IMG/VR virus record: IMGVR_UViG_3300044511_000043
Coordinates: 1 to 21,210 of that record
Strand: one strand, 5' to 3'
DNA length: 21,210 nt
Source: a virus
Part shown: one piece after another, positions 2 through 11,611 of the stretch
Layout of the letters: each line of letters starts with the position of its first letter
Numbering within the stretch: the first letter of the stretch is position 1
Made by a program: the position numbers and the translations under genes
Notes under the pieces: generated by a model
The model's database searches: none
Seen by the model: only the letters and a program-made list of their open reading frames with translations
Told to the model about the DNA's origin: nothing

Positions 2-109
2 GCCACTATGCACGAAGACCTTTACCATTGCGGTCATCGCGTCGTTGTGGCGAGAACACTAGCCAATGCTATTGAGGCAGTGGTGAGCTTTTACCGGAGC
101 AAAGTATGA
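2..109 (+). CDS. C-terminal end of an upstream gene, unknown product (partial)
   Basis: An open frame enters from the left edge and stops at 107-109. The last 35 residues include the segments DLYHCGHRVVVARTLANA and VVSFYRSKV. Its stop overlaps the ATG of the next gene in an ATGA arrangement, as in many gene pairs here, which supports it being real. The start lies outside the window and no family is recognisable from this tail. Confidence 0.5.
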   Translation, partial: ATMHEDLYHCGHRVVVARTLANAIEAVVSFYRSKV

Positions 110-900
110 CAAAAGACGCTCCGGCTTTCGATTTTTACCCTGAGCGTTGGCTTTCAGGCGTGGCTAAGTTTTCTGATGCAGAGCAACTGACATACCTGCG
201 ATTGCTCTGTCACCAGTGGCTTGACGAAGGCTTGCCCGACAATACAGCAGCGCTAAAACGCCTTGGTGGAAAAGGCGTGACGCCTGAGCTTTTGGAGAAA
301 TTCCCACTATGCGAAGATGGCAAACGCCGCAATGCGAGGCTTGAGACAATCCGCAGCGAACAGCGTGCGCGTATTGCTAAAAAGAGCGAACAACGCAAAG
401 CGGCTGCAAATGCGAGATGGGAGAGAGAGCGGCTGCAAAATACATGCGAAAAGGATGCGACCGCATCATCACCGCATTGCGGCAGCGATGCGACCGCATC
501 ATCACCGCATTGCGGCAGCGATGCCCACCACCCACCACCCACCACCCACCACCCACCACCCACCACCCACCCTATTAATAAACCACACACACCGCGCGCG
601 CATGCGCGAGGTGTCTGGCCTGATCCGTCGGAATATCCGACCGTCGAGACGGTTCGGCAATGGGCCGTAGCCGTAATGGCACCGCCGGAATGCGCCGATA
701 AATGGCATGCCGAACGCACGGCGGAAGGCTGGTTGAGCAAACACGGCAGACCGTTGCAACTCATTGCGTTGCGCCCGCTCTTTGCGGTCTATGCCACGGC
801 CTGGAAGGCCAATGAGAACCGGGGGAATCAACGATACGCCAGACCGCCCCGTCCCGCCGATATTTCGGACGTGAAACCACAAAACATGCGTGTGCTATGA
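106..900 (+). CDS. YdaU/DUF1376-type phage replication protein
   Basis: 264 aa. The N-terminal 100 residues (FDFYPERWLSGVAKFSDAEQ, then LRLLCHQWLDEGLP) match the DUF1376/YdaU pattern of phage replication-initiation proteins, which sit next to a DnaC-type loader, as here. A basic helix follows (about 85-115). Next comes a repetitive low-complexity linker: DATASSPHCGS twice, then HHPPPTT repeats, at about 117-156. The C-terminal domain (about 165-250, with WLSKHGRPLQLIALRPLF) resembles the replisome-organiser tail that contacts the loader or origin. The start is supported by GGAG seven bases upstream of ATG. The stop overlaps the next gene's ATG (ATGA), implying translational coupling. The role as initiator is inferred from family and context. 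Confidence 0.72.
   Translation: MTKDAPAFDFYPERWLSGVAKFSDAEQLTYLRLLCHQWLDEGLPDNTAALKRLGGKGVTPELLEKFPLCEDGKRRNARLETIRSEQRARIAKKSEQRKAAANARWERERLQNTCEKDATASSPHCGSDATASSPHCGSDAHHPPPTTHHPPPTTHPINKPHTPRAHARGVWPDPSEYPTVETVRQWAVAVMAPPECADKWHAERTAEGWLSKHGRPLQLIALRPLFAVYATAWKANENRGNQRYARPPRPADISDVKPQNMRVL
454..519 (+). repeat. Two perfect 33-bp tandem repeats inside the replication gene
   Basis: The 33-base unit at 454-486 is repeated exactly at 487-519. It encodes DATASSPHCGS twice. Being a multiple of three, copy changes keep the frame. It lies directly before a 7-bp tandem repeat. Confidence 0.95.
524..572 (+). repeat. 7-bp tandem repeat, seven units, inside a coding region
   Basis: The unit CCCACCA is repeated seven times (the last base of the last unit differs). 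Three units make 21 bases, so the protein shows the seven-residue repeat HHPPPTT. Gain or loss of one or two units would shift the frame of the replication gene and remove its C-terminal domain. Confidence 0.95.
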
Positions 901-1604
901 TCAACGCCCAAGACATCGCCGCCCCGTTTTTGGACAGCTTAACGGCTCGTCATCGCCGCACTTGCCAGAGGTGCAAGAAGCCGTTCAATGCCGTTGGATT
1001 CTTGATCTTGTGCGAAGTATGCGAAGGACTACCAGATTCGCCGCCTGAACCCATAAGGCGCGAACTCGGCGAGTCATGGCCTGAGCGTCACCGTGCACAG
1101 CTCGCCAGCCTGCATGGGCCTGGGCTTATCAAGGCCCAAGCATTGCTTCCACTTGTGCGCGAAGGCGATTCCATGCTAGTGCTTGCTGGGGATCGCGGTC
1201 GGGGCAAAACGCAGATTGCCACTTGGCTGGCTTGGCAGCGTGGCCAGAATGGCCTGAAGCCGGGCATTTACGCCAAGGCATTCGACATTTTCACTGACGT
1301 GAAAAACACATGGTCGAAGCAATCGACCGGAAGTGAAGCGGGGGTCTTGGACCGTTACAAGAAAGCAGCATTTCTAGCGATAGATGAATGCCATGAGCGC
1401 GGCGAAACCGATTGGGAGAACCGCACCTTCCGCAACGTGCTAGACCATCGCTATGACGCCTGCCTGCCTACGGTTATCATTGGAAATTGGCGCGAGGCTG
1501 GGCAGGTGAGAGACAGCCTTGGAGCGTCCATAGTTGATCGTATCAGCGAGACGGGAGGGATCGTCTTTTGCGACTGGCCTAGCTATAGAATGCAACCCTC
1601 ATAA
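897..1604 (+). CDS. DnaC/IstB-type helicase loader ATPase
   Basis: 235 aa. The N-terminus has a zinc-binding pattern, CxxC-N12-CxxC (C23, C26, C39, C42), as in many phage DnaC-like proteins. Walker A is GDRGRGKT (98-105), Walker B is AFLAIDE (158-164), the sensor-1-like strand is VIIGNW (193-198), and a candidate arginine finger is in SIVDRI (211-216). The length fits phage DnaC-like AAA+ loaders. In the family these load the replicative helicase at the origin, helped by the partner initiator encoded just upstream. The ATG overlaps the upstream stop (ATGA). IstB-type transposition helpers look similar, but no transposase is nearby. Confidence 0.85.
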   Translation: MINAQDIAAPFLDSLTARHRRTCQRCKKPFNAVGFLILCEVCEGLPDSPPEPIRRELGESWPERHRAQLASLHGPGLIKAQALLPLVREGDSMLVLAGDRGRGKTQIATWLAWQRGQNGLKPGIYAKAFDIFTDVKNTWSKQSTGSEAGVLDRYKKAAFLAIDECHERGETDWENRTFRNVLDHRYDACLPTVIIGNWREAGQVRDSLGASIVDRISETGGIVFCDWPSYRMQPS

Positions 1605-2578: not shown

Positions 2579-2799
2579 TGTTGCCGTGCCCGTTCTGCGG
2601 CCTGACCGACAAAGACACTGTGCCAAACATGGGACTCGTGCCCGCCGTGGCCATACACAGCTACCCCCAAGGCTATAGGGTCGAGTGTGAAGGGTGCGGC
2701 TGTGACGGCCCGTGGCATCACCAACACTCGGAAGCAATCGCCGTGTGGAATCGCAGGCCGAACGTCCCAGCTCATACTACATCCTCCAATGCTTCCTAA
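2542..2799 (+). CDS. Lar-like restriction alleviation / zinc-ribbon protein
   Basis: 85 aa. LLPCPFCG at about 13-20, CEGCGCDGP at about 50-58 and EAIAVWNRR at about 64-72 reproduce the Lar family signature: two CxxC pairs and a closing EAI..WNRR. Rac-prophage Lar enhances host methylation and so reduces restriction of phage DNA. A link to the DNA methyltransferases downstream would make sense, but many Lar-like proteins have no tested role. It overlaps the upstream stop (ATGA), and its end overlaps the methyltransferase start by 11 bases. Confidence 0.75.
   Translation: MNTPNDKTGGCSLLPCPFCGLTDKDTVPNMGLVPAVAIHSYPQGYRVECEGCGCDGPWHHQHSEAIAVWNRRPNVPAHTTSSNAS
2757..2785 (-). other. attC-like half-site (left arm only)
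   Basis: GCCGAAC (2757-2763), six-base spacer, GCT, CATACT matches the pattern and resembles the left arm of the complete site at 7744. No complementary right arm was found before the methyltransferase gene. The AAC is in frame with the Lar-like ORF. Confidence 0.33.
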
Positions 2800-3493
2800 A
2801 CCATATCATTCAGAGCATGCCGTCACTATATTTTGCGGCGACTGCCGCCAGATCGTGCCGCTGCTAGGACGGTTCGATCTACTGCTCACTGACCCGCCTT
2901 ATGGAATAGGCTTGAATACAAGCAGGATTAGAAGGACGTGGAATGTGAAGTCGTCCAAATGGGCTGCGGCGAGGGTAACTAAAGACTACGGAGTTCATGA
3001 ATGGGATAGTGCGCCGCCGCCAGATGATCTTATTAACATGGTTGTAGCCGCTGCGGGCAGAAGCATTATATGGGGTGGGAACTACTTTGCGCTACCCCCT
3101 TCACCATTCTGGTTAGTATGGGACAAACAAACCAGCGGCAACTTTGCTGACGCAGAGCTGGCGTGGACGAACATGGTCGGCGCTGTGAAGTTGAAACATT
3201 ACTTGTGGAACGGCTTCAAGAAGGCGAAGCCAGAAGATCGCTGGCATCCAACACAAAAGCCGTTGGAGGTCATTCAATGGGCTCTATCGCTCGCCGGAAA
3301 TATTCAAACCATCCTCGACCCATTCGCTGGAAGCGGGACAACCGGAGTCGCAGCAAAAAACCTCGGAAAAACGGCTGTTCTGATCGAGCGCGAGGAACGA
3401 TACTGCGAGATAGCGGCCAAGCGACTAGCTCAAGGGGTTTTGAACTTCGATAGCCTGCCCCAGAGGAATGGTTCTCCATCTTTTGTATTATGA
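2789..3493 (+). CDS. DNA methyltransferase, beta class (N6-adenine or N4-cytosine)
   Basis: 234 aa from ATG 2789, chosen because upstream in-frame codons lie in the Lar frame and add no homologous residues. The order is VTIFCGDCRQIVPLL (12-26), catalytic motif IV DPPYG (35-39), WGGNY (95-99), HPTQKP (153-158), then the SAM-binding motif DPFAGSGTT (177-185) and AVLIEREERY. DPPY before FxGxG defines the beta class (PF01555). It acts on DNA using SAM; the target site is unknown. No restriction partner is nearby, so it is probably a solitary phage enzyme protecting phage DNA. Its stop overlaps the next ATG (ATGA). Confidence 0.9.
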   Translation: MLPKPYHSEHAVTIFCGDCRQIVPLLGRFDLLLTDPPYGIGLNTSRIRRTWNVKSSKWAAARVTKDYGVHEWDSAPPPDDLINMVVAAAGRSIIWGGNYFALPPSPFWLVWDKQTSGNFADAELAWTNMVGAVKLKHYLWNGFKKAKPEDRWHPTQKPLEVIQWALSLAGNIQTILDPFAGSGTTGVAAKNLGKTAVLIEREERYCEIAAKRLAQGVLNFDSLPQRNGSPSFVL

Positions 3494-3696
3494 TTGCACG
3501 CCATCAACACGAACACGAAGTCATCAATGCCCGAGAATATCCCGGCACGCGCCAACTGTGCACGATCTGCGACGAGCCAACGGAGCGATGCGAGGAAGAC
3601 GCCATCTACACGGAGGATGACGAAGGACCGCTTTGCGTAGAATGTTGGCGCAAAACGCCGGAATACATTCTGGAGAACGCTGGAACTGAGCGATGA
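3490..3696 (+). CDS. Small zinc-ribbon-like hypothetical protein
   Basis: 68 aa, acidic, with CTICDEPTERC (24-34) and CVEC (49-52), a probable one-zinc ribbon. Both ends overlap neighbours by ATGA. The last residues LENAGTER are encoded by the left arm of the complete attC-like site at 3672, with Asn-Ala in the common frame. No family assigned. Confidence 0.6.
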   Translation: MIARHQHEHEVINAREYPGTRQLCTICDEPTERCEEDAIYTEDDEGPLCVECWRKTPEYILENAGTER

Positions 3697-3769
3697 GTGC
3701 CCCTCTACCAACGTCCGAACCTGCAAGCCGCGTCGCGGGGCACTCATTCGCTCCAGTGACTGGTTCTGC
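3672..3769 (-). other. attC-like integron recombination site 1
   Basis: Left R box GGAGAAC (3672-3678), right R box GTTCTGC (3763-3769). The left stem ACT-GAGCGA-TGAGTGCCCC (3685-3703) pairs with 3737-3755. The right arm carries two extra bases (C and T on the + strand), six pairs apart. Spacers next to the R boxes do not pair. The minus strand reads AAC..., with GCGTT at its far end, as in known attC sites, so the site is assigned to the minus strand. Confidence 0.8.
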
Positions 3770-4571
3770 GGCACGGTCGAAATACAAGACCATCGTAGCC
3801 GACCCTCCGTGGCCCATTGGAAACTTCCCCGCATGGTTTGCCAAAGAGCGTCGAAGCAAGCGCGAGCGTGAAATCGGCGTGAACCCGACGCCATACAAGA
3901 CGATGACGCTACCTGAAATCGAACGCCTGCCAGTCGGGGACATCGCGGCAGACGGGGCGCATCTCTATCTGTGGACAACCGATAACTTCTACGAGGATGC
4001 GCTCGGTGTGGCGCGAGCGTGGGGCTTCGAGAAATCGGCAACGCTGGTCTGGTGCAAGAAGCCAATGGGGAAAGGAATGGGCGGGACGTATCCAAGCAAC
4101 GTCGAGTTCGTGCTGTTCTGTCGGCGCGTGGACAACCGTGGGTGGAAGCAATTCGGGGAATGGCTGCGCGAACGCCGGACGGCGGCGGGACTGACGACCG
4201 GCCAAGTGTGCGCGGCAATCGGGGCACATGGGGCGATGAACCACGGCGGGATGCAAAGCAACTGGGAAAACGGTCTGGCTGTGCCGTCGCTGGAGCAATG
4301 GGCAAAGCTGAAACCGATGCTCGGCGTGAACGGAGAGACGGACGGATGGCTCGAAAGCCTGCAAATCGAATCGGGCAACCGCGCCGATAGCCGGTGGTAT
4401 CAGTGGGCGCGTGGCAAACACTCAGCCAAGCCAGAAGCCTTTCAGGACATCGTGGAGCAAGTAAGCCCCGCTCCGCGAATCGAACTCTTTGCGCGACGGC
4501 AGCGCATCGGGTGGGACTCATGGGGCAACGAATGCCGGAACGACGTGGCGCTAGTGCCGCAGAACGCATAA
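3693..4571 (+). CDS. MT-A70 family DNA adenine methyltransferase with HTH insertion
   Basis: 292 aa. YKTIVADPPWPIG holds the catalytic DPPW (37-40) of the MT-A70 family. The usual fold continues with PYKTMTLPEIERLPV (67-81), HLYLWTTDNF (90-99), LVWCKKPMGKGMGGTYPSNV (118-137) and EFVLFCRR. At about 150-225 an XRE-like helix-turn-helix (FGEWLRERRTAAGLTTGQVC; NWENGLAVPSLEQWAKLKPM) interrupts the domain. It then resumes with GKHSAKPEAF and RIELFARRQRIGWDSWGNE (262-280). It probably methylates N6 of adenine in phage DNA. ATG 3693 lies inside attC-like site 1, so the first 22 residues are encoded by that site; GTG 3756 is an alternative start. It ends in PQNA at site 2. Confidence 0.88.
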   Translation: MSAPLPTSEPASRVAGHSFAPVTGSAARSKYKTIVADPPWPIGNFPAWFAKERRSKREREIGVNPTPYKTMTLPEIERLPVGDIAADGAHLYLWTTDNFYEDALGVARAWGFEKSATLVWCKKPMGKGMGGTYPSNVEFVLFCRRVDNRGWKQFGEWLRERRTAAGLTTGQVCAAIGAHGAMNHGGMQSNWENGLAVPSLEQWAKLKPMLGVNGETDGWLESLQIESGNRADSRWYQWARGKHSAKPEAFQDIVEQVSPAPRIELFARRQRIGWDSWGNECRNDVALVPQNA

Positions 4572-4658
4572 GGTGACTGACCGACATGAGCGCCACTGAT
4601 GCCAGCCTCGCCCCTGACTGTCCCGCTCATGGCGGTTCAGTCCACCGGCTTGTTCTGC
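4559..4658 (-). other. attC-like integron recombination site 2
   Basis: R boxes GCAGAAC (4559-4565) and GTTCTGC (4652-4658) are fully complementary. The inner stem GGT-GACTGA-CC...CATGAGCG pairs with CGCTCATGG...TCAGTCCACC. Two extra bases sit on the right arm, six pairs apart, with one mismatch in the distal stem. The spacers (gcataa / ggctt) do not pair. The loop is about 30 bases. It holds the stop of the MT-A70 gene and the start of the next gene. Confidence 0.85.
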
Positions 4659-5329
4659 CGGGGGTGGAGCTGTATTGCGGGGACTGCCGGGAAATCATGC
4701 CAACACTGGCAAGCGTGGATGCCTGCATCACTGACCCGCCCTATGGAATCGCTTATGATCCGAGCGAAAGCACGCAGCAGGGAATCCAACGCTTCGCAAT
4801 GGTGATCGGAGACGATGAAGTCTTCGACCCGGCACACCTAATGGACTTCCCAGATGTAATCATGTGGGGTGCAAACAACTACTGCCACGCCATCCCGCCA
4901 AGGATCGGCCAATGGTATTTTTGGGATAAGGTGACACAAAACGCACTCAAGGTGAGAATTGCCGAAGGCGAATACGCTTGGCACAAGAAAGGCACAAAAC
5001 CCCGCGCATTCCGCCACTTGTGGAGCGGTGCATACCGCGCCAGCGAATCCGGCGAGCGTGCTGTGCATCCGACGCAAAAACCAGTAGTGCTCATGCAATG
5101 GTGCATGGACTCCATGAAGCTACCAGAAGGTTCCGTGGTGCTCGATCCCTACATGGGCAGCGGATCAACAATCATCGCTGCAATCCGCACCGGGCGGAAA
5201 GCAATCGGCATAGAGAAAGACCCGGAACACTTCAAAAACGCCGTGGAACGGATCAAGCGTGAACTCGCGCAAGGCGATCTATTCCTTGGGCAGAACGCCT
5301 CTGGTGACTCACCGCCGTTCGGCGGTTGA
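4586..5329 (+). CDS. DNA methyltransferase, beta class
   Basis: 247 aa. VELYCGDCREIMPTL (27-41), DPPYGIAYD with catalytic DPPY, WGANNY, HPTQKP, and the SAM motif DPYMGSGST followed by AIGIEKDPEHF give a PF01555 beta-class enzyme. It parallels the one at 2789-3493 but is clearly divergent. ATG 4586 has AAGGTGA ten bases upstream; the first 26 residues run through attC-like site 2 and look unstructured. GTG 4664 (VELYCGDC) is an equally plausible start. The C-terminus (GQNASGDSPPFGG) is encoded by site 3 and the stop lies inside that hairpin. It is expected to methylate adenine-N6 or cytosine-N4 in DNA. Confidence 0.88.
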   Translation: MSATDASLAPDCPAHGGSVHRLVLPGVELYCGDCREIMPTLASVDACITDPPYGIAYDPSESTQQGIQRFAMVIGDDEVFDPAHLMDFPDVIMWGANNYCHAIPPRIGQWYFWDKVTQNALKVRIAEGEYAWHKKGTKPRAFRHLWSGAYRASESGERAVHPTQKPVVLMQWCMDSMKLPEGSVVLDPYMGSGSTIIAAIRTGRKAIGIEKDPEHFKNAVERIKRELAQGDLFLGQNASGDSPPFGG

Positions 5330-5348
5330 GTCCACCGACTTGTTCGAC
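5290..5348 (-). other. attC-like integron recombination site 3 (compact)
   Basis: R boxes GCAGAAC (5290-5296) and GTTCGAC (5342-5348). The stem GGT-GACTCA-CCGCCG closes with a TTCG loop and pairs with CGGCGG-T-TGAGTC-C-ACC, leaving two extrahelical bases on the right arm six pairs apart. At 59 bases it is the size of a classic 59-base element. The dam-like gene begins 11 bases after it. Confidence 0.85.
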
Positions 5349-5359
5349 CTCTTCATATT

Positions 5360-5842
5360 ATGGCAAGACTCCGAAAACAGTTTGAATCCGCAACCGTCGA
5401 ATGGCCGACACCGGACAGTCTATGGAAGCCGCTCCATGATGAGTTCGGCTTCACGCTCGACGTGTGCGCAACTGACGAAAACGCCAAGTGTTCGCGATAC
5501 TATACGCGCCACGACGATGGACTGGTGCAACCATGGTCCGGTGTGTGCTGGATGAATCCTCCGTATGGCCGGGAAATGGTCGCCTGGCTGAAACGCGCCG
5601 AGTCTGAGAAAGCCAATGGGGTGACGACGGTTGCGCTGATACCATCGCGGACAAATACCGGATGGTGGCATGACATCGTGATGCCCAATGAAGTCCGCTT
5701 CGTGCGGGGTCGTCCGAAATTCGGAAACGCAGATCAAGGATTGCCTTGGCCCCTCGCCGTGGTGGTTTTTCGGTCGAACGCCCTTCGTCAGCCGCCCCTA
5801 CCGGCTGGCGGGAACACACCAACTAAAGACGCGGCCCGGTAG
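5360..5842 (+). CDS. Phage DNA N6-adenine methyltransferase (PF05869, Dam type)
   Basis: 160 aa, the usual size for this phage family. Key segments are EWPTPDSLWKPLHDEFGFTL (14-33), DVCATDENAKC (34-44), WMNPPYG with the catalytic NPPY (64-70), MVAWLKRAESEKANG, and the closing ALIPSRTNTGWWHD. It methylates adenine N6 in DNA with SAM. The start ATG follows attC-like site 3 directly and has no Shine-Dalgarno. The last about 20 residues (SNALRQPPLPAGGNTPTKDA) come from translation into site 4. The enzyme core ends before them, so the tail is probably dispensable. Confidence 0.9.
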   Translation: MARLRKQFESATVEWPTPDSLWKPLHDEFGFTLDVCATDENAKCSRYYTRHDDGLVQPWSGVCWMNPPYGREMVAWLKRAESEKANGVTTVALIPSRTNTGWWHDIVMPNEVRFVRGRPKFGNADQGLPWPLAVVVFRSNALRQPPLPAGGNTPTKDAAR

Positions 5843-7831: not shown

Positions 7832-8480
7832 GTTGGAGTCTGTGCGGATGGGCCGAGATTCAGAACTCTTAGATGACATGCTGGACTTCTACGCTCCCGC
7901 CGCAAAACGGATCATAGACGTGTGCTGCAATCGGCGGAAGATGTGGAAGGGAACGCGATGGGGCAGCGAGGTGACGTGCTACGACATCAACCCCGAAGTG
8001 ATGCCCGACGTGGTGACAGGGTGGCATGAACTACCCGACCCTGACGGATCGGTGGACGTGCTATGCTACGACCCGCCGCACCTGCCAGCCGCCGCCGCAA
8101 CTCAGGCAAGCCTCAAGCAATACGTCACCGACTACGGGCTGGAGCAAACCTGCGGAGGCGACAATGTGGCCGCGCTGCATCTGCCGTTCCTGGCCGAAGC
8201 GAAGCGAGTGCTCCGCCCCGATGGTCTGATCTTCGCCAAGATCAAGGACTACATCCACAATCACCGCTACCAGTGGAATCTGGAATACTTCAACGCTGCC
8301 GTGCGTGCTGTCGGGCTGACACCGTGCGACCTGATAATCAAACGTGACCCGTGCGGCGGGAATCTCAAGAGTGGCCGATGGAAGACGGCACACCACGCCA
8401 AGAACTGCCACTGCTATTGGGTAGTGGTCAGGAATGGGCGTTGCGAACCGCGCACAGTTTCTTCCGCGAACAAGGATTAG
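7761..8480 (+). CDS. Predicted SAM-dependent methyltransferase (probable DNA or small-molecule target)
   Basis: 239 aa from ATG 7761 inside attC-like site 6, or 210 aa from ATG 7848 just after it; the latter keeps the whole domain. IIDVCCNRRKMWKGTRWGSE is a motif-I-like SAM loop. VTCYDINPEVMPDVVTGWHE, then LPDPDGSVDVLCYDPPHLP supplies a DPPH in the motif-IV position. FLAEAKRVLRPDGLIFAKIK is the typical Rossmann strand 5 region. It resembles phage class I methyltransferases with a DPPHL motif. Substrate is uncertain. The C-terminal SANKD has an Asn codon within GCGAAC, hinting at one more degenerate site. Confidence 0.72.
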   Translation: MDADLFTPIQDGRSSAFHAATCSRLESVRMGRDSELLDDMLDFYAPAAKRIIDVCCNRRKMWKGTRWGSEVTCYDINPEVMPDVVTGWHELPDPDGSVDVLCYDPPHLPAAAATQASLKQYVTDYGLEQTCGGDNVAALHLPFLAEAKRVLRPDGLIFAKIKDYIHNHRYQWNLEYFNAAVRAVGLTPCDLIIKRDPCGGNLKSGRWKTAHHAKNCHCYWVVVRNGRCEPRTVSSANKD

Positions 8481-8577: not shown

Positions 8578-8955
8578 ATGCCTAAACTCAACCAACGTCA
8601 GCTATTATTTTGCGAGGCACTGCTTGCCGGTGCTTCGCAGGCTGAGGCCTATCGGCGCGCTGGTTACTCGCCTGTTCGAGCCGAGTCGAAGGCTGCTGAG
8701 CTAGTGCGAACCCCTGCTGTTTCAAGCTATTTATCCGCAAAGAGGGCAAAGAGCGAACAAGCTGGCGAGTTCTTGCGAGAAGATGCTTTGCGACTGCTGC
8801 ACCATTTGGCCACATCTGGCGACACGTCTAGCAGTCGCGTTGCTGCCATTGCTCAAGCTGCGAAAATGCAGGGCTGGAACGCTGCCGAGAAGCAAGAGCA
8901 TAGCGTCTCTGACAACTTGGCCGCTCTTCTCGCCAAAGTGCGAGGCCGGGCATGA
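8578..8955 (+). CDS. Terminase small subunit
   Basis: 125 aa from ATG 8578. A GTG at 8563 would add five residues but lies inside the palindrome. LNQRQLLFCEALLAGASQAE, then AYRRAGYS (4-31) and LVRTPAVSSYLSAKRAKS match the Terminase_2 (PF03592) N-terminal HTH, which recognises phage DNA. LLHHLATSGDTSSSRVAAIA and QAAKMQGWN form the usual oligomerisation region. In the packaging complex it selects the pac/cos site and passes DNA to the large subunit, whose ATG overlaps this stop (ATGA). Confidence 0.85.
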   Translation: MPKLNQRQLLFCEALLAGASQAEAYRRAGYSPVRAESKAAELVRTPAVSSYLSAKRAKSEQAGEFLREDALRLLHHLATSGDTSSSRVAAIAQAAKMQGWNAAEKQEHSVSDNLAALLAKVRGRA

Positions 8956-10574
8956 TCACGGCAGCGGAGAGGGCTGAATGGGATCGTAGGTCCGCCAAGG
9001 ACAGACCTGACGCTGAGGCACTAGCGGACCCGCTTTGGCGTCTGGCGTGGCTCTACACGTGCAAGCACGGCGCAAAAATGGTGCCTTTTCGTCCGACTGA
9101 AGAGCAGGTCGAAGTGATCATTTGCATCCACTTGAGAGGCTGGCGCAAGCTCATAATACCCAAAGCGAGACAGCTCGGTATGAGCACGGTTCTAGCCCTG
9201 ATATGCCTGGACATGTGCCTCCACATTGCCGGGTTTAAGGCCGCGCTGGTGGACAAGACGGCAGCGGACGCTGCCACAAAGCTCGACGAGAAAATTGAAC
9301 AGGTCTGGAATGGGCTACCGGAAGAGTATCGAGCCGCATACACCACGCCGAAGGGGTATGCACCTGGGGGCATGGCTTGGAAGGTTGGCGAGGACGATGT
9401 GAGCGTTTTTGAAGCGGGTGCTGGCTTTCGTGGCGGAACGCTGCAATTCGCGTGGATTAGTGAATGGGGATGGATTCAGGCGAATGACGCCAGCCGCTCG
9501 AATGAAATTCTAACCGGGACGCTGCCAGCCGCAGAGCTTGGCATCACAGTGGTCGAAACAACTTGGGCAGGCGGTAAGTCTGGCGACGTGTGGACTCTGG
9601 TTGAAGAAGCTTTGAACACGCATGAAGCGGAAAAGGGGCCGGATAGCTGGCGCATCCTTTTCTTTGGCTGGCATTCGTGCTCGGCTTACACTACCGAACA
9701 CGGCTACGTTGACGACGCCAGCGCGGAGCTACTGGCCAAGACTGAGGCAAAGCTTGACTTCACGTTCACTGATGGTCAAAGGCGTTGGTATGCGGCGCAA
9801 CGTCGCAAATACAAGCGCCAGATTTTCGGCGAGTATCCCAGCACGCTCGACGAGTGTTGGTATGCGCCTGTGGAGGGCAGCATTTACGGCGAGGAACTGG
9901 ACATGCTACGCACGGCTGGAAGGCTTTGCGCCCGTCCAGCCCTGCTGAATCATTTGCCTTTGTTCACATGGTCAGACTTGGGCATAAGAGACACCGGCAT
10001 CTTGCTCCTGGCGCAACCTGCTGGAACTGATATCCATGTTCTCGACTACCACGCCGCAGAGGGCGAGCCTGCGAGCTATTGGGCAGGCGCGATAATGCGA
10101 TGGGAACAGGAATACAAAGTCATTATGAGGCATTTTTTGCCACACGATGCAAACAGGCGGAGCCTGAATGACGCTGCGAGCTACGTCGAAACGCTGGCAA
10201 AGCTGGGCATTAAGAACACCGAAGTCTTGCCAATGACTCACACGGTATGGTGGGGCATTGGCCTTTTGCGTGACATGCTGCCGCGAATGGCCTTTCATGA
10301 ACGCTGCTCACAGCCTTGGAAAGATGGCACCGGCAAAGAGCGAATGAGCTTGGTTGCTGCCCTGGAAGTCTATCGTAAGCGGACCAATTCCAGCGGCAAA
10401 GTCGTCAATGACGAGCCATTGCACGACGAGGCGAGCAATTACGCTGATGCCGTGCGCTACTTAGCCGAAAGCCTCGCCCGTGGTGTGGTGCCCACGTCTG
10501 AGAAAATCGGGCGAGACGCGGGACGCGACAAGGCAAGGGCAAGGCTAAAAGCGACGATGCAAGTTGGCGGTTGA
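8952..10574 (+). CDS. Terminase large subunit
   Basis: 540 aa, normal length. The ATPase domain has the Walker-A-like KARQLGMST (71-79), Walker B with catalytic Glu FAWISEWG (167-173), and coupling motif VETTW (201-205). The RNase H-like nuclease carries TWSDLG (D342), PHDANRR (D399) and DEASNYADAVRY (about 492-503), the expected acidic triad. It cuts concatemeric DNA and pumps it into the prohead through the portal. The start overlaps the small-subunit stop by ATGA. The portal gene that usually follows is absent. Confidence 0.93.
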   Translation: MITAAERAEWDRRSAKDRPDAEALADPLWRLAWLYTCKHGAKMVPFRPTEEQVEVIICIHLRGWRKLIIPKARQLGMSTVLALICLDMCLHIAGFKAALVDKTAADAATKLDEKIEQVWNGLPEEYRAAYTTPKGYAPGGMAWKVGEDDVSVFEAGAGFRGGTLQFAWISEWGWIQANDASRSNEILTGTLPAAELGITVVETTWAGGKSGDVWTLVEEALNTHEAEKGPDSWRILFFGWHSCSAYTTEHGYVDDASAELLAKTEAKLDFTFTDGQRRWYAAQRRKYKRQIFGEYPSTLDECWYAPVEGSIYGEELDMLRTAGRLCARPALLNHLPLFTWSDLGIRDTGILLLAQPAGTDIHVLDYHAAEGEPASYWAGAIMRWEQEYKVIMRHFLPHDANRRSLNDAASYVETLAKLGIKNTEVLPMTHTVWWGIGLLRDMLPRMAFHERCSQPWKDGTGKERMSLVAALEVYRKRTNSSGKVVNDEPLHDEASNYADAVRYLAESLARGVVPTSEKIGRDAGRDKARARLKATMQVGG

Positions 10575-10598
10575 CATATCGACTAATATCGTCATAGT
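10571..10598 (+). promoter_or_regulatory. Putative promoter upstream of the capsid gene
   Basis: TTGACA (10571-10576), 16-base spacer, CATAGT (10593-10598), overlapping the end of the large terminase gene. It would give a leader of about 135 bases before the capsid ATG. Consensus match only. Confidence 0.35.
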
Positions 10599-10612
10599 TG
10601 CCACGTCGACCC

Positions 10613-10675
10613 GGCCCGCAAGGCTTACCGGAGTTGATCGCCAGCGAACTGTGACAGGCCCGTAAGGCTTACCGG
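10613..10675 (+). repeat. 19-bp direct repeats in the capsid leader
   Basis: GGCCCGCAAGGCTTACCGG (10613-10631) recurs as GGCCCGTAAGGCTTACCGG (10657-10675), one mismatch, 44 bases apart. They lie in the 167-base gap between large terminase and capsid, which has no gene. They could belong to a structured leader, be a protein-binding site, or mark a deletion scar. Confidence 0.85.
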
Positions 10676-10741
10676 CAGAGGCGAAGTCAGTAGAAGGCCA
10701 CTAGCGAGGCCGGATACACAAACTTCCATCACTCTACCGCT

Positions 10742-11611
10742 ATGCCCATTGAAAGTCACTATACTACGCAGTTTTCAACCAACTGGATTCATCGCATCCA
10801 GCAGACCAAGCAACGCCTTGGCGCTTTTATCGAGTGGGACAACTTTGACGGCGAGCGCAAACGCTATGACCGTATCGGCTCCATGTCGAGCCAGGCAAAG
10901 ACCGAACGCAACGCGCCTACGCCGATTCAAGAAGCGTCTTTCGATAGCCGCTGGGCTGTTCGTCAAGAATTCAACATGGGCAATATCCTCGACAAGAAGG
11001 ATTCCAAAAAGCTCGGTCAACTTGTCCTCCCGACAAGCGACTACGTGAAGCAGCACGCCAACGAATATCATCGCAATTGTGATGATGTGATGTGGAAAGC
11101 TGCCCTTGCCGCTGTGCCTACCGGCAAGGATGGTTCTGGCTCGTCTGCTCTGCCGGAAGCGCAAAAGGTGGCGCATGGGTCCAAGAATCTCAACGTCGCC
11201 AAGCTCATTCAGATCAACGAAATTTTTGACGACGCTGACTTGGAAGACGAAGCGCCCCGCGTCATGCTGGTGACTGCTAAGCAGCTTTCGAGCCTTCTGA
11301 GCACTACCAAAGTCACAAGTGCCGATTACGCCGCCGTGAAGGCTCTGGTGAACGGAACCATTGATACCTTCATGGGCTTCAAGTTTGTGAAGATCAAGCG
11401 ACTTCCGAAGACCGGCAACATTCGCACGTGTGTTGCCTTCGCCAAGGGCTCCATTCGCGGTTTCATGGGCGCGAAAGAGACTGACATCGCGGAGCGCAAA
11501 GACCTGTCCAACGCCATTCAGATTTATTCTGAATGGGACCTCGGCGCAGTGCGCGTTCACGACGAGAGCGTTGTTTCTTTCGAGTGCGACGAATCTGTGA
11601 CCGGCGATTAA
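10742..11611 (+). CDS. Major capsid protein
   Basis: 289 aa. Position after the terminase, size, and segments HYTTQFSTNWIHRIQQTKQR (6-25), a viral-capsid-like N-terminus, DDVMWKAALA, LIQINEIFDDADLEDEAPRV (about 155-174) and VTAKQLSSLLSTTKVTSADY identify a short phage capsid protein of the HK97-like 'phage capsid protein' type. IRGFMGAKETDIAERKDLSN near the end is typical. It forms the icosahedral shell. No Shine-Dalgarno precedes ATG 10742, which is odd for the most abundant virion protein. No separate scaffold gene is visible. Confidence 0.82.
   Translation: MPIESHYTTQFSTNWIHRIQQTKQRLGAFIEWDNFDGERKRYDRIGSMSSQAKTERNAPTPIQEASFDSRWAVRQEFNMGNILDKKDSKKLGQLVLPTSDYVKQHANEYHRNCDDVMWKAALAAVPTGKDGSGSSALPEAQKVAHGSKNLNVAKLIQINEIFDDADLEDEAPRVMLVTAKQLSSLLSTTKVTSADYAAVKALVNGTIDTFMGFKFVKIKRLPKTGNIRTCVAFAKGSIRGFMGAKETDIAERKDLSNAIQIYSEWDLGAVRVHDESVVSFECDESVTGD

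Follow-up and report, generated by a model that had tools for sequence, protein, structure and literature searches.

A putative replication origin of iteron-like units and short tandem repeats within a phage initiator gene

Replication origins that lie within genes are already known, and phage lambda carries its own in the middle of gene O (PMC7466680, PMC6022878). According to these two sources, the N-terminal part of lambda O is held to bind DNA and the C-terminal part to bind P, with a flexible linker between them. They also describe Stx phages with 6 iterons, in which the two extra iterons mean 13 more residues of protein. The annotated ori iterons of lambda occupy 39034-39118 of a gene O that spans 38686-39585 (J02459), a place similar to that of the repeats described below.

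Short repeats feature in two further systems. The neuO gene of prophage CUS-3 is a true heptamer switch, a 7-bp repeat in prophage coding sequence that yields the full-length product at multiples of three units. As reported (PMC13001214), the repeats lie in the 5' region, number 3-53 units and are OFF in 42 of 64 genomes. The DnaA-trio of bacterial oriC, as described (PMC10797057), is a few-copy trinucleotide motif that is contacted by DnaA and lies beside the initiator box nearest the opening region.

The stretch of DNA analysed here (the window) comprises 21,210 bp and is a virus record from IMG/VR. A preliminary description of it had pointed to seven CCCACCA units and a perfect 33-bp duplication within a replication gene, and had proposed that slippage of the heptamers could act as a phase switch. 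The repeats are real. However, a different function is favored here. Judged from sequence and from comparison with relatives, positions 444-572 are probably the replication origin of the phage, carried within its own initiator gene; we put the probability at about four in five.

The initiator gene and its repeats

The initiator gene (106-900, plus strand) encodes 264 amino acids and was recognized from the list of open reading frames, PHROG matches, a sub-cut-off match to Pfam DUF1376 and an AlphaFold2 model. The protein matches the primosomal protein families phrog_9327 (3e-9) and phrog_3992 (5e-7). Its score against DUF1376 (YdaU) is 24 bits, under the curated cut-off of 30.1; four relatives reach 26-29 bits and that at locus L025 has no match. 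Of the BFVD fold matches with E of at most 0.001, 14 of 34 are named DUF1376. NCBIfam gave no match for any of seven proteins. The best sequence match among solved structures was unrelated (E 0.14) and the lowest Foldseek E in the PDB was 5.7. In the AlphaFold2 model, built with 19 sequences, confident stretches at about residues 10-118 and 175-240 flank a low-pLDDT linker that holds most of the repeats, with mean pLDDT below 50 in each block of residues 121-170. The predicted protein probably consists of a DUF1376/YdaU-like N-terminal domain (about 10-118) and a C-terminal domain (about 175-240) joined by a flexible, disordered linker (about 121-170), low pLDDT being a hint of disorder and no proof of it. 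This agrees with the placing of the array between two domains in the preliminary description. The C-terminal half has no PHROG match in the window. Among five relatives scanned, that of L004 resembles phrog_678, "replication initiation O-like" (9e-11), and that of L006 weakly matches phrog_270 (5e-4).

A gene for a DnaC-like helicase loader (897-1604, plus strand; phrog_50, 5.5e-23; phrog_3277, 2.8e-20) lies directly downstream, its start overlapping the end of the initiator gene. The closest genome relatives of the initiator belong to Verrucomicrobiota, and so the host of the phage is probably found there. GC skew across the window is uninformative, with no clear minimum at the repeats. Four consecutive DNA methyltransferase-like genes (N6_N4_Mtase, MT-A70 with a weak HTH, N6_N4_Mtase and phage Dam) occupy 2687-5842 and are adjoined by a Lar-like restriction alleviation gene (2542-2799). 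No portal was matched among the 15 window proteins scanned against PHROGs, and there is no space for a portal gene at 10574-10742, where the gene for the large terminase (8952-10574) is followed by that for the major head protein (10742-11611).

Tandem Repeats Finder places the 33-bp duplication at 454-524 on the plus strand (2.2 copies, 100% match, score 142) and the CCCACCA repeat at 524-571 (period 7, 6.9 copies, 100% match, score 96), base 572 completing the seventh unit. These are the two top scores of the 10 rows for the window, the next being 42. What had been overlooked is that the 33-bp unit is three times 11 bp, with phased half-sites. Eleven base pairs is about one helical turn and is no codon step. 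Seven iteron-like units of 11 bp can be laid out over 444-520 (plus strand) from the register of the half-sites: ATGCG or TTGCG occurs at 444, 455, 477, 488 and 510, with ATGCC at 521, and CGCAT occurs at 462, 473, 495 and 506. Both sets keep the 11-bp register from 444 to 521. Their density reaches 9 in 90 bp, against a window mean of 0.7 and a maximum elsewhere of 4. Three outlying ATGCG sites on the same strand, at 309, 332 and 410 (309-414), may be chance; the first two are 23 bp apart and the third lies 34 bp from the first unit at 444. The heptamer array (524-572, plus strand) abuts the iteron array. Its opposite strand is G-rich, and it codes for a Pro/Thr/His linker whose repeating peptide is identical whichever of the three frames is read.

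How might such an origin work? The N-terminal domain of the initiator would bind the phased 11-bp iterons, and the C-terminal domain would bring in the helicase loader, the product of the next gene. Strand opening would then take place beside the iterons, in the manner of lambda O and P. The heptamer array on their 3' side may provide a single-strand contact, like the DnaA-trios, or may be a spacer, and in other initiators 5-7 bp repeats of different sequence stand there instead. What the sequences show is the anatomy, the phasing with the helix, the position of the short array 3' of the iterons, the conservation and the loader gene; binding, strand opening, activity as an origin and the role of the short array are inferred from them.

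The likeness to lambda lies in the mid-gene position, in iterons set in the linker between putative DNA-binding and loader-binding parts, and in the loader gene that follows. The 33-bp duplication would amount to three extra 11-bp units added in frame, which parallels the extra iterons that lengthen the Stx phage protein. However, the window has 11-bp units whereas lambda has 18-bp iterons spaced 20-24 bp, and the place of the 39-bp AT-rich tract of lambda is taken by a 7-bp array. The N-domain also differs in being DUF1376-like, a distinction drawn from the family match. A search for an AT-rich unwinding tract beside the iterons found none: the array is about 28% AT and is followed by a weak rise, seen in the window as a short AT-rich stretch at 573-582 (plus strand). 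Across the family, mean AT is 0.51 in the first 15 bp after the array and 0.30-0.43 in the remaining bins outside it. Since no such tract was found, the locus is best filed as a variant working like ori-lambda, outside the lambda O family itself. The array resembles the DnaA-trio in being a short repeated motif beside the putative initiator sites, but its candidate units are of 5-7 bp, varied in sequence and C-rich in this clade.

Other structures near the array are less marked. A weak inverted repeat with a 5-bp stem lies 3' of it (593-608, plus strand). Of 18 genes, 4 have a stem of 7-8 bp here and 5 have one of at least 6 bp; among control windows, stems of at least 7 bp occur in 2.2% and stems of at least 6 bp in 7.3%. 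The RNA of this place does not fold more strongly than that 100 bp upstream (mean z -1.0 and -1.07, respectively), and a hairpin after the heptamers is a hint only. With RNA parameters, a G-quadruplex is possible on the strand opposite CCCACCA. It is unlikely as a general property because TCTGCAG, CAGAGA, TCTCAG and other units found in related linkers are not of that kind.

Periodicity and short arrays in related initiators

Relatives were collected by a whole-protein search (7 loci in IMG/VR), by an N-domain profile (12 in IMG/VR and 8 in genome contigs, one of these unrelated) and from 386 genomes of the order to which the Verrucomicrobium G003 belongs, 18 of them with a match. Two family searches over the same 68 genomes gave a match in 14 and nothing new. 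The set used for periodicity comprised 30 initiator genes, the window and 29 relatives, after duplicates of one contig had been merged and L030 (truncated), L031 (unrelated, integrase-like by eye), L045 (start not located) and L047 (decayed) had been left out. The best self-match lag was taken in the linker from codon 88 to the CCCACCA-like array, or over 200 bp, and 900 equal-length windows elsewhere in the same loci served as controls.

The linkers are phased with the helix. The best lag falls in the set 11, 12, 22, 23, 24, 33, 34 and 35 in 27 of 30 initiators but in only 238 of 900 controls, and it is not divisible by three in 18 of 30 linkers compared with 54 of 900 controls; the genes are kindred, with near pairs included, and these counts are therefore not independent. 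A helical-set lag is seen in 9 of the 30 N-domains of the same genes. Without the window and L063, which was found via its heptamer, the proportion for linkers is 25 of 28. Seven of the 30 are not significant singly against shuffles (L006, L007, L026, L041, L042, L046 and L048). The sequences of the iteron-like units vary from phage to phage. When applied to lambda O, the method ranks lags of 23, 24 and 20 at the top, which is the true spacing, with p 0.30 in 200 bp and z 3.8 in a chosen 160-bp window. Seven cultured phages were fetched for comparison and six initiators analysed, L149 being left out. Four of these (L144, L146, L147 and L148) have lags of 22 or 12 with z of 4.6-8.1 in whichever of several windows scored best; in the other two (L145 and L150) the lags are weak. 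The top-scoring 12-bp array among the relatives examined is in the initiator linker of L029 (4207-4481), where the unit is repeated 23 times and encodes Ser-Ser-Ala-Pro repeats.

A short array beside the iterons is also a shared feature. CCCACCA-like arrays of at least 2 units are present in 18 of 30 initiators, or 16 of 28 without the window and L063. A wider survey took any 5-7 bp tandem array with a Tandem Repeats Finder score of at least 30 in the linkers of 34 relatives, leaving out the window, L063 and L011. Such arrays occur in 27 of 34 linkers versus 84 of 680 control windows, and elsewhere in the genes they were seen in none of the 34 N-domains and at 3 of the 34 gene ends. Raising the score threshold to 40 gives 18 of 34 and 36 of 680. 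Outside the CCCACCA clade they are 12 of 16 and 25 of 320, with units such as TCTGCAG, CAGAGA, TCTCAG, CAGAAA and CCCAT. Linkers with arrays other than CCCACCA include those of L020, L021, L044, L049, L050, L146 and L148, and the program found no 5-7 bp array in L007, L028, L029, L043, L048, L144 and L147. The position is consistent. Among genes with both elements, here searched with the window, L063 and L011 included, 21 of 22 have the short array on the 3' side of the iterons, with a gap of 0-45 bp in 20 genes and of 76 bp in another; the arrays of L050 overlap. Because 5-7 bp arrays of other sequence hold the same place 3' of the iterons, the CCCACCA array is probably a second origin element, of which the heptamers would be one version.

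The L011 initiator (4257-5066) has the same arrangement of period-12 repeats, (CCCACCA)4 and a C-terminal domain, all inside the initiator gene. However, it belongs to a different phage initiator family (phrog_9474, phrog_270 and phrog_2447) with no DUF1376 match, and a DnaB-like helicase gene lies downstream. It is a single case, found because of its heptamer. CCCACCA stretches were in initiators in 7 of 35 cases, compared with 0 of 16 for a control heptamer of the same composition, for which at most 230 residues of the longest frame were read (Fisher p 0.058, the stretches not being independent). A reversed-pattern control also gave a signal and was set aside as uninformative, since reversing a CCCACCA array yields another array of this kind. 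In IMG/VR, with the window's own and very near records possibly left out, the exact 33-bp unit had no match.

Taken as support for an origin are the helical and non-codon lags, the half-site maximum of the window, the short array 3' of the iterons, the fixed codons of the heptamers (see below), the downstream loader gene, the O-like match of L004 with the weak one of L006, the similar place of the lambda iterons, and the copies outside initiator genes (see below). Counting against it are the lack of a clear AT-rich opening region, the uninformative GC skew, the seven individually non-significant linkers, the result for lambda in 200 bp, the borderline periodicity of the chromosomal element L108 (see below), the relatedness of the genes, the seven relatives without a 5-7 bp array and the existence of heptamer-only arrays without iterons. 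If the reading is right, the layout of lambda, with the origin within the initiator gene, extends to a widespread and little-characterized DUF1376/YdaU-like family. It would also offer a quick way to find origins in uncultured phages, by looking in the initiator linker for 11-12 bp periodicity and then a 5-7 bp array. And if the short array is truly a second element, the opening of phage origins without an AT-rich tract becomes directly testable.

Slippage, peptide or chance

What if the heptamer array is instead a contingency locus, in which slippage toggles the full-length initiator and, for example, restrains lytic replication in part of the population? The array is long, perfect and out of codon step, and the frame arithmetic behind the proposal is correct: past the array, the stop comes after 109 codons in frame 0 and after 1 and 32 codons in the other two frames. 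There is even one case that resembles slippage. L024 has one heptamer more than its close relative L025, which puts its C-terminal domain one frame over. Compared in its own frame, this domain has pN 0.057 and pS 0.254, and the N-domain has pN 0.038 and pS 0.183. The C-terminal domain is thus constrained like the N-domain, and so the shift in L024 either arose recently or comes from faulty assembly; the genome of L024 was assembled from a metagenome, where misassembly of a repeat could happen. However, 17 of 18 genes with CCCACCA-like arrays, of 2-7 units each, are in frame, or 17 of 19 when the decayed gene of G056, which is broken otherwise too, is added; these counts concern divergent relatives and not one population. 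At the OFF rate of neuO, the probability of at most 1 of 18 being out of frame is 1.6e-7 and that of at most 2 of 19 is 1.0e-6. Many of the relatives' arrays are also short or interrupted, and short arrays of 5, 6 and 7 bp occupy the same place in other initiators. The array differs from neuO in being mid-gene and in adjoining iterons. Heptamer switches do have a phage precedent, that of neuO being prophage-borne, and this speaks for the idea in principle. What stands is the non-codon unit and a single pair that differs by one unit; a selected switch is not supported, and we regard it as very unlikely. Slippage is possible and has perhaps been seen once, but the family is unlike a contingency locus. 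The 11-12 bp repeats beside the heptamers, and the 5-7 bp arrays that generally follow such repeats on the 3' side, point to an origin at the DNA level. The wider caution is that a repeat array out of step with the codons of a replication gene need not be a contingency locus and can be an origin instead.

Perhaps the array matters for its peptide. A PPPTTHH segment could be retained as a flexible or loader-contacting linker, with the DNA repeat a by-product. The constancy of the peptide in every frame fits this, as do the predicted disorder and the retention of at least one PPPTTH-like motif by most members of the clade. But codon fixation exceeds what a peptide needs. The first Pro codon of the motif is CCA in 15 of 15 genes, against 74 of 305 elsewhere in those genes, and the Thr codon is ACC in 15 of 15, against 59 of 192; since these genes too are akin, the counts are not independent. 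Moreover, CTC replaces CCC in 3 of 15, which alters the amino acid and keeps the heptamer pattern. Iteron periods of 11, 22, 23 and 34 are not codon steps, and chromosomal copies exist without an initiator gene (see below). This explanation is likewise highly improbable. Alternatively, the heptamers might be a neutral short tandem repeat of a kind common in these hosts, lodged by chance in a tolerant linker. Plain CYCACCA and other 7-bp arrays do occur in the same genomes, and a disordered linker would tolerate repeats. Yet the short arrays are concentrated in linkers over gene ends and controls, they keep to one side of the iterons and are found in phages of other hosts too, and the unit and its codons are conserved. 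A neutral repeat would also leave the iterons unexplained. It is an unlikely account of the array, and an origin within the initiator gene is preferred to all three.

Chromosomal copies of the array

An exact 19-bp array is present in 4 of 68 genomes of the family. The sites are a prophage initiator (G063), the decayed initiator (G056) and three others in host chromosomes, G073:C4, G063:C1 and G024:C2, at which iteron-like repeats accompany the CCCACCA array: L107 at about 8280-8430 (G073:C4), L108 at about 9120-9311 (G063:C1) and L109 at about 9580-9760 (G024:C2). The iteron-like repeats lie upstream of the array, with best lags of 34 and 11 in L107 (z 4.2) and 24 and 12 in L109 (z 6.3). Periodicity in L108 is borderline (best lag 18, then 23, 24 and 35; p 0.05), and this element aligns with L107. 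An initiator N-domain was not found in the 19-kb stretches around these sites, the best tblastn match (E 0.006) being short and off the array. Over about 98 bases, the G063 element matches the origin-like stretch of the G063 prophage at 80% identity. The elements of G063 and G073 are in the same place, between ribonucleotide reductase-like and dehydrogenase-like genes (named from their translations), and share 75% identity over 122 columns, with flanks at 55% and 38%. A role as host oriC was considered and dropped, because dnaA is 157 kb distant in G063 and 278 kb in G073; coarse GC skew, at 22 points of G063, has no switch at the element.

These copies are possibly decoy origins or relics. 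Ectopic lambda origins arrest the phage, according to one report (PMC4488673). A bolder reading combines the observations into one scheme, in which the 5-7 bp array is a general second element of initiator-embedded origins that replaces the AT-rich tract, as a single-strand contact comparable to the DnaA-trios with CCCACCA as one version, and in which the chromosomal module could serve as a decoy, titrating the phage initiator and shielding the host. As a whole this scheme is tentative and, on balance, doubtful. No description of DUF1376-like phasing, of a 5-7 bp array 3' of iterons or of the chromosomal copies was found in the literature searched, mostly by title. The copies make a testable case of host-borne phage origins.

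A wider heptamer pattern finds arrays in 15 of 386 genomes. Eighteen distinct sites were read. Initiator genes, or elements with iteron-like repeats and heptamers, account for 8 of them; the remaining 10, mostly CTCACCA, are plain arrays that lack an initiator and any significant helical lag. Since plain arrays make up 10 of 18 sites in the same order, the heptamer alone is no marker of an origin. A 100-kb viral contig (L009) carries 17 heptamers (ACCCACC/ACCTACC) at 9868-10102, followed by 15- and 30-bp repeats; no gene was recognized by eye over these repeats. Arrays of other 7-bp units also occur in this order, among them ATTTATG, TGATTTA, TCACTCG, TTGGTCA and CTCACCA (L024, L027, L040, L041, L050 and L155), and these are reminiscent of the STRR repeats of cyanobacteria.
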